A stretch of DNA of 64,000 nucleotides. Origin: Thioalkalivibrio sp. K90mix. GTDB lineage: Bacteria > Pseudomonadota > Gammaproteobacteria > Ectothiorhodospirales > Ectothiorhodospiraceae. The stretch lies in NCBI RefSeq assembly GCF_000025545.1, contig NC_013889.1:2597501-2661500 (forward strand), written 5' to 3'. Positions 912 to 12,801 of the stretch are shown in pieces. Both the position numbers and the translations under genes were made by a program. The notes beneath the pieces are model-generated. The model saw nothing but the letters and a program-made list of their open reading frames with translations. It did no database searches and was not told the DNA's origin. Numbering within the stretch: position 1 is the stretch's first letter; every line of letters starts with the position of its first letter.

Positions 912-1195
912 AGGGAGACACTGACTGATGGACACGTTCGCGCTCGAGTCGATTTTGCGTGCTGACAAGGCGTGGTGAGCGACGTGTAGCCGAGCTACAT
1001 AAGCGAGCCGCAACGCAGTCAGCGGGCAAAATCGGCCGAGCCCCGTCCGTCAAGAATTTGTGGGGTTGGCACCCCATGTTCCCCGATCCTGCGTTGCGCC
1101 GCTTGCCGGTAGCACCACTACCGACTGCGCGCCGCGCCTGGTCTCGGGAAACATGGGGCGCCAACGCGAACGTGTCCATCAATCAGTGTCTCCCT
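912..1195. repeat. Palindromic structured element, copy 1 (MITE-like, cloverleaf-forming)
   Basis: A 284-bp element bounded by near-perfect 31-base terminal inverted repeats beginning AGGGAGACACTGA, with one mismatch between the arms. Inside are two long hairpins and a short one. The first, about 950-1036, has arms CGATTTTGC/GCAAAATCG, then GCTGAC/GTCAGC and an apical GTGTAG/CTACAT. The second, about 1061-1167, has CCCCATGTT/AACATGGGG and an apical CGGTAG/CTACCG. A CCCC/GGGG stem with an enlarged loop lies between them. A second copy at 12532-12801 preserves every stem with paired base changes. The element sits between rph and rdgB and supplies the last codons of rph. It encodes no convincing protein. 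It looks like a non-autonomous mobile element or a large REP-type repeat; no target duplication is obvious. Confidence 0.85.
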
Positions 1196-11325: not shown

Positions 11326-11401
11326 GGCCGGGTAGCTCAGTCGGTAGAGCAGGGGATTGAAAATCCCCGTGTCGGCGGTTCGATTCCGTCCCCGGCCACC
11401 A
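11326..11401 (+). tRNA. tRNA-Phe (anticodon GAA)
   Basis: A 76-base cloverleaf. The acceptor GGCCGGG pairs with CCCGGCC. The D-arm is GCTCAGTCGGTAGAGC. The anticodon stem GGGGA/TCCCC encloses the loop TTGAAAA (anticodon GAA). The T-arm loop is TTCGATT, and CCA is encoded at the 3' end. Confidence 0.97.
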
Positions 11402-12531: not shown

Positions 12532-12801
12532 AGGGAAACACTGACCCATGTACACGCTCGCGCTCGAGTCGCTTTTGCGTGCGAACAAGGCGCGGTGACT
12601 GCCGTGCAGTCATTCTGCACAAGGGAGCCGCAACGCCGTGCGCACACAAAAGCGGCCGAGCCCCTTCGGGGTTGGCACCCCAGGTTCCCCGATCCTGCGT
12701 TGCACCGCTTGCGGGTAGAACCACTACCCGCTGCACGCCGCGCCTTGCCTCGGAAAACCTGGGGTACCAACGCGAGTGGGTACATGGGTCAGTGTTTCCC
12801 T
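12532..12801. repeat. Palindromic structured element, copy 2
   Basis: A 270-bp copy of the element at 912-1195. The terminal inverted repeats begin AGGGAAACACTGACCCATGTA on both sides. The internal stems are kept with compensatory changes: CGCTTTTG/CAAAAGCG, apical GTGCAG/CTGCAC, CCCCAGGTT/AACCTGGGG and apical GGGTAG/CTACCC. The small middle hairpin is CCCC-TTC-GGGG, without the extra loop bases of copy 1. It contributes the last codons and stop of the small gene at 12789-13034. Confidence 0.85.

Follow-up and report, generated by a model that had tools for sequence, protein, structure and literature searches.

MITEs are usually viewed as the empty shells of dead insertion sequences, and their interiors are usually not conserved between families. 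RAYT-associated REPIN/REP doublets are built from two related hairpins in inverted orientation, which together form a mobile unit, and Correia elements have reportedly been found inverted in place. The element described here occurs twice in the 64,000-nucleotide stretch of Thioalkalivibrio sp. K90mix DNA that was analysed (the window). As in IS5-family MITEs, its ends are shared with an IS5 element, TA duplication is seen at several loci, it probably has no transposase of its own and the copies are many. It differs from these MITEs in its interior, a conserved pair of covarying hairpins that recurs with several kinds of terminal repeat. With REPIN/REP doublets it has in common the use of two related inverted hairpins as the mobile unit, but it carries DDE-type terminal repeats with TA duplication, and GTAG, which (or CGTC) marks the hairpin foot of REPs, here sits in the upper stem, inside the stem of the tip, whereas the foot reads CAAGGCG/CAACGC. 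The terminal repeats and two-arm architecture seen here are not known from Correia/NEMIS, ERIC or QMITE2 elements. The likeness to this last group lies in stable transcript folds, which PMC10969869 reports for MITEs. REPs are given as 20–40 bp in PMC3733652, compared with hairpins of ~83 nt here.

The new part of this element is its conserved two-hairpin cargo, carried across differing transposon ends; the MITE nature itself is known. The initial annotation had hinted at an undescribed class of structured mobile DNA or RNA. The element is indeed mobile and structured, and no description of the two-arm architecture was found in the literature searched, which covered subscription papers in small part, but the vehicle belongs to a known kind of element, MITEs with IS5-type ends. 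Because families with different ends share a conserved, structured interior, it becomes testable whether a non-coding transposon carries its own functional fold, as RNA or DNA, and also whether a host factor reads that fold.

Both copies in the window are present where the initial annotation placed them (912–1195 and 12532–12801), with true limits that are one base narrower at each end as judged from empty sites and the family alignment (Table 1). Searching the whole genome (2.99 Mb, 2 contigs) with these copies revealed a family that extends well past the window, with at least 40 related places; this copy number is a lower bound because 40 of 86 candidates were scored. The terminal-repeat motif by itself, with up to 3 mismatches allowed, occurs 183 times in the genome versus 2 occurrences for a reversed control. 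Full-length copies differ by indels of ~15 nt in the alignment of the family (A1), and in some copies a ~15-nt mini-hairpin cassette (CCCGTT.TTGAT..AACGGG type) substitutes for part of either arm (A1 columns 116–131 and 207–221). One 205-bp copy (L038:1505–1709) has cleanly lost the tip of one arm; its G039 ortholog is complete. Two tiny palindromes consist of the two terminal repeats alone (L048:1217–1240, 24 bp; L050:574–607, 34 bp), and these are likely elements that have lost their whole interior. A tRNA gene lies on the + strand ~1.1 kb before copy 2 (window positions 11326–11398, RF00005, 70.7 bits); it was the only match in an Rfam 15 scan of the window, and a scan of five loci from outside the genus gave nothing near a gathering score.

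Table 1. Coordinates of the two cloverleaf MITE copies and their parts (window positions)
Feature	Position	Strand	Basis
Cloverleaf MITE copy 1, 282 bp	913..1194	+	Empty sites in sister species; alignment A1
Copy 1 left terminal inverted repeat / outer stem	913..942	+	
Copy 1 left arm hairpin; sense strand CAAGGCG..CAACGC on +	948..1036	+	A1 columns 36–140
Copy 1 central CCCC/GGGG mini-stem, loop enlarged	1040..1066	+	A1 columns 144–172
Copy 1 right arm hairpin; left-arm homologue, inverted, sense strand on -	1067..1163	-	A1 columns 173–285; arm homology
Copy 1 right terminal inverted repeat / outer stem	1165..1194	+	
Cloverleaf MITE copy 2, 268 bp	12533..12800	+	Sequence match; empty sites
Copy 2 left terminal inverted repeat / outer stem	12533..12562	+	
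Copy 2 left arm hairpin, sense strand on +	12568..12656	+	A1 columns 36–140
Copy 2 central CCCC/GGGG mini-stem	12660..12672	+	A1 columns 144–172
Copy 2 right arm hairpin, sense strand on -	12673..12769	-	A1 columns 173–285
Copy 2 right terminal inverted repeat / outer stem	12771..12800	+	

The predicted folds of the two copies are highly stable (z = -13.2 for copy 1 and -13.4 for copy 2), with none of 200 dinucleotide shuffles as stable in either case. A consensus of 44 own-genome copies has two long hairpins and a short central stem inside an outer stem formed by the terminal repeats, and thus matches the four-way cloverleaf of one outer stem and three hairpins that had been proposed from the two copies. 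The paired changes on which that proposal was based (CGATTTTG/CAAAATCG, GTGTAG/CTACAT, ATGTT/AACAT and CGGTAG/CTACCG, each with its counterpart) are found in the sequence, as is the middle stem CCCC/GGGG with extra loop bases in copy 1. Covariation also holds genome-wide, as, for 36 of the 90 predicted pairs, one or more of the 44 copies have changed on both sides and still pair. The left arm is similar to the reverse complement of the right arm beyond shuffles (z 3.0–6.8 in seven copies), with at least one of 500 shuffles reaching the real score in three of them. Left and right arms are homologous, and the element therefore looks like an inverted pair of one hairpin, which is borne out outside the genus, where a single model finds both arms.

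Our comparisons with sister species show that this element has moved. The MITE is matched in 16 of 47 genomes of the family, all of them within the genus Thioalkalivibrio. Locus 1 is occupied in the own genome, G023 and G024, and at least eight genomes (G016, G017, G018, G019, G020, G025, G026 and G039) have an empty site there with a short overlap. At locus 2, the own genome, G020 and G022 carry the element, and six genomes (G012, G016, G017, G021, G024 and G039) have an empty site. Several insertions show a clean 2-bp TA duplication relative to the empty site (L011, L012, L026 and L030), and one a 3-bp TTA duplication (L004). One flank is altered at L007 and L018, and the flanks are unlike the empty site at L006 and at locus 1 and locus 2 (L001 and L020). 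By its terminal repeats and target duplication, the element is a MITE. A candidate source of transposase is present in the same genome, where a 1202-bp insertion sequence has the same ends as the MITE terminal repeats and encodes a transposase of the IS5 family (NF033581, E 2e-95), identical in three copies. At L036:1521–3036, a MITE copy directly adjoins this 1202-bp element with a CTAG junction common to both, as if either one had inserted into the end of the other.

The distribution of the insertion sequence within the genus overlaps that of the MITE. Its transposase is matched in six of 30 genus genomes (once as a fragment), all six being among the 16 MITE carriers, with no match in the other 10 MITE-bearing genomes. 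The ends of the copies in G019, G021 and G026, and the single visible end in G016, match the MITE repeats, and one of the two G021 copies has a second repeat variant that is also present in MITEs; around the G012 transposase fragment, no MITE-type end was seen. From this co-occurrence, we infer that IS5-family transposases probably mobilise the MITE in trans. Outside the genus, NF033581 is matched (E <= 1e-20) in seven of 15 genomes tested, and the insertion sequence ends that were compared with the MITE repeats known there gave no match in six NF033581-positive genomes, nor did the ends of the G167 insertion sequence copies when compared with those of the G167 MITEs.

The hairpin module itself recurs far outside Thioalkalivibrio. 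A covariance model for which the own genome supplied all 20 arms (R1; 21 pairs, 0.68 bits per position) matched 67 of 274 evenly drawn genomes of the class at E <= 1e-4, spread over 53 families, or 65 of 272 without the two genus genomes, with E-values that are rough. In a phylum sample, R1 matched 39 of 398 genomes, 17 in the class and 22 outside it (17 of these 22 in one family). A plain sequence pattern derived from the arms found 52 stretches in the genome collection, 37 of them non-Thioalkalivibrio, including Woeseiaceae, Nitrococcus, Salinisphaera, Thiohalobacter, Halopseudomonas pachastrellae, Pseudomonas abyssi, Methylophaga and a Lysobacter MAG. We scanned 56 outside loci with R1, comprising 30 of the 37 pattern stretches (all but L248, L260, L265, L266, L277, L278 and L293), 18 class-survey loci and 8 of 9 further arm loci (all but L313); L223 and L252 have identical flanks and are one element, which leaves 55 distinct loci. 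Over these 270,099 bases of outside DNA, R1 gave 95 matches at E <= 0.01, consisting of 56 first arms, 36 partners on the opposite strand, one more pair and one single match. The inverted partner lies beside the first arm in 36 of the 55 distinct loci, at a distance of 21–73 nt (median 23), and in 36 of 36 such pairs the sense arm is the 5′ arm on its own strand.

Many of these outside elements are bounded by terminal repeats of their own. Flanking inverted repeats are present in 42 of 49 loci tested (41 of 48 distinct), the set of 56 having been reduced by the single-arm loci L218, L229, L232 and L315 and by L230, L268 and L317. The 42 repeat-bounded elements span 249 to 353 bp, with 37 of them between 269 and 291 bp, and all have the sense arm 5′. 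By eye, their repeats fall into about 10 types (for example GGGCCTGTTAACAC, GAACCTATCTCA, GCCCTGCCCTTGA, TTAACCCGGCAAGGG and CTAAGCCCAACGGGC) and are flanked by TA in many cases, with some not clear. A second end was sought for unpaired GGGCCTGTT ends, and none was convincing. The four single-arm elements are ~160–167 bp long, come from other families and have their own terminal repeats. A repeat of the GGGCCTGTTAACAC type also bounds an IS5 element of subgroup IS5_3 (NF033580) on an Enterobacter plasmid, whose transposase has no significant BLASTP similarity to that of Thioalkalivibrio. In a tree of arms from 36 two-arm elements (33 of the 36 outside plus 3 own, with repeat labels set by eye), the labels need 10 changes where the minimum is 9. 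The Thioalkalivibrio arms fall in a clade (97/97) with four Salinisphaeraceae elements and L221, all of which have another kind of repeat. This mixing of repeat kinds within a clade suggests that ends may have been exchanged while the interior stayed, a suggestion that is not firm given several long branches.

The comparison across families bears on how the covariation is to be understood. The initial annotation took it to imply selection on, or copying through, a folded single strand. Two copies alone are insufficient for this, because arm-to-arm correction or exchange between copies could also yield covariation in a palindromic family; the wider comparison does support the idea. Among the 95 outside arms (94 distinct), 92.6% of cells are paired versus 34.1–48.2% with partners slid, part of the former value being built in, as the structure guided the alignment. 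The covariation score is 0.824 versus 0.108–0.166 with partners slid and 0.205 when shuffled, with copies and families entering these counts, and the strand counts below, as non-independent samples. The number of doubly changed pairs is a measure that does not discriminate here (20 versus a shuffled mean of 19.0). In addition, the unpaired foot bases C20, A21, A22, A101 and A102 are kept in 94–99% of outside arms. Were the fold not under selection, it would be difficult to account for a hairpin module that turns up across the class with its covariation and its unpaired bases preserved, and it is this cross-family evidence, not the two copies, which argues that the cargo seems to be kept by such selection.

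We think it probable that the element is a TA-targeting non-autonomous MITE moved in trans by IS5 transposases, with a two-hairpin cargo that is kept by selection on its fold, most likely as RNA. In this mechanism, IS5-family transposases would recognise the terminal repeats and move the element, whose interior is a conserved cargo: two inverted copies of one ~83-nt hairpin, which has CAAGGCG opposite CAACGC as its bulged foot, are joined by a small central stem, and cargo and terminal repeats together form the four-way cloverleaf. Since the two arms point towards each other in a constant orientation, the first hairpin of a transcript running in from left or right would be a sense hairpin. A host factor that binds or processes RNA could then recognise the bulged foot and make intergenic insertions tolerable, and tolerated insertions would allow copies to accumulate between genes. 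We propose, as parts of this mechanism, that the element is transcribed, that such a host factor exists and that tolerated insertion is of benefit. More tentatively, and at somewhat under even chances, the module may be a proteobacteria-wide selfish structured cargo, in which an inverted hairpin pair of fixed polarity has long kept its fold and its bulged recognition motif while ends and transposase were repeatedly swapped among IS5 subgroups, and which a conserved host factor reads as RNA.

The fold could instead act as DNA, with the cloverleaf extruded in single-stranded or supercoiled DNA and read by a structure-specific host protein or the transposase, so that it aids transposition or targeting to replication forks and covariation keeps DNA hairpins intact. 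We regard this as unlikely on balance, and the strand tests bear on it most directly. Among whole own elements, the plus strand is more stable in 34 of 94, so neither strand is favoured, and G-U pairs number 63 versus 29 A-C, with 27 of the G-U coming from two columns. Such neutrality is expected if inverted arms cancel, but is expected for DNA too. A DNA-only reading was at first suggested by this whole-element test; a per-arm retest, made after the arm inversion had been seen, showed a sense bias. In that retest, the sense strand gives the more stable fold for 30 of the 44 own left arms (a weak bias), for 43 of the 44 own right arms and for 73 of the 77 outside arms, the last being a set drawn from 90 matches. 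The same is true of 33 of 36 outside partner arms, and when partner halves were chosen by position alone, sense was better in 29 of 41 (p 0.012), or 29 of 40 distinct (p 0.006), and in 8 of the 13 partner arms undetected by the model.

The kinds of pairs in the outside arms also differ between the strands. Their alignment (A3) contains 194 G-U versus 8 A-C pairs, a gap that may be enlarged by the model that selected and aligned the arms, as it favours G-U over A-C. Read as sense-strand G-T, this excess is unpredicted by pure DNA pairing, and a cruciform needs no two arms of fixed polarity. The G-U excess thus favours selection as RNA without proving it. The sense bias persists with G-U forbidden (own left 37 of 44, own right 43 of 44, outside 69 of 77) and with DNA parameters (32 of 44, 37 of 44 and 73 of 77, respectively), so wobble pairs are not its sole cause; this persistence suits a fold acting as DNA, as do the double use of the outer stem as terminal repeat and the block changes and in-place inversions described below, which resemble products of DNA folding or exchange. 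With G-U forbidden, the mean gap falls from 9.05 to 2.99 kcal/mol in own right arms, from 6.65 to 2.70 in outside arms and from 2.49 to 1.68 in own left arms, which indicates that wobble pairs account for much of the size of the bias and not for all of its sign. Calls of flanking-gene orientation from codon GC were weak in 29 of 38 cases. With moderate confidence, we read the strand bias together with the fixed polarity as favouring RNA.

Orthologous filled sites compared across genomes of the genus show how individual elements change, and this bears on a reading without function, in which both arms are rewritten jointly, by replication template switching inside the palindrome and by gene conversion among copies. 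Among the comparisons listed, whole elements are inverted in place at two or more sites (L011/L178 and L047/L073), the tips of hairpins have changed in blocks on both sides (L002/L169, L027/L172 and L038/L071), and the ~15-nt cassette is present or absent at the same site (L004, L011, L016, L027, L030 and L031). The block changes in tips and cassette correspond to variants seen in other copies (L002/L169, L027/L172 and L031/L081), as such rewriting would predict. These inversion and exchange calls are provisional, because most sister genomes are drafts in which 280-bp repeats can be misassembled, and apparent exchange may stem in part from that source. Moreover, neither process keeps specific unpaired bases, the 36 of 36 polarity or a roughly constant length in dozens of families with several kinds of terminal repeat, which makes this reading improbable. 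At one site (L020/L054), the element differs by 1 substitution while the flanks are 93% alike, so that the element is far more alike than its surroundings. Sequences of three genomes at the L007 site (L181–L183) could be aligned to the element in neither orientation and were left out.

That the recurrence outside the genus reflects convergence or chance GC-rich hairpins matched by a permissive covariance model is very improbable, for even with a model as small as R1 and E-values as rough as those above, the matches in the outside DNA are almost all first arms and inverted partners, and the plain sequence pattern also found such elements, many of them with terminal repeats at the expected distance. 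A covariance model of this kind can annotate the multi-copy repeat in many genomes. In searches of plasmids, L217 gave no match, and L247 gave partial matches alone, in one Halomonas and one Methylophaga record.
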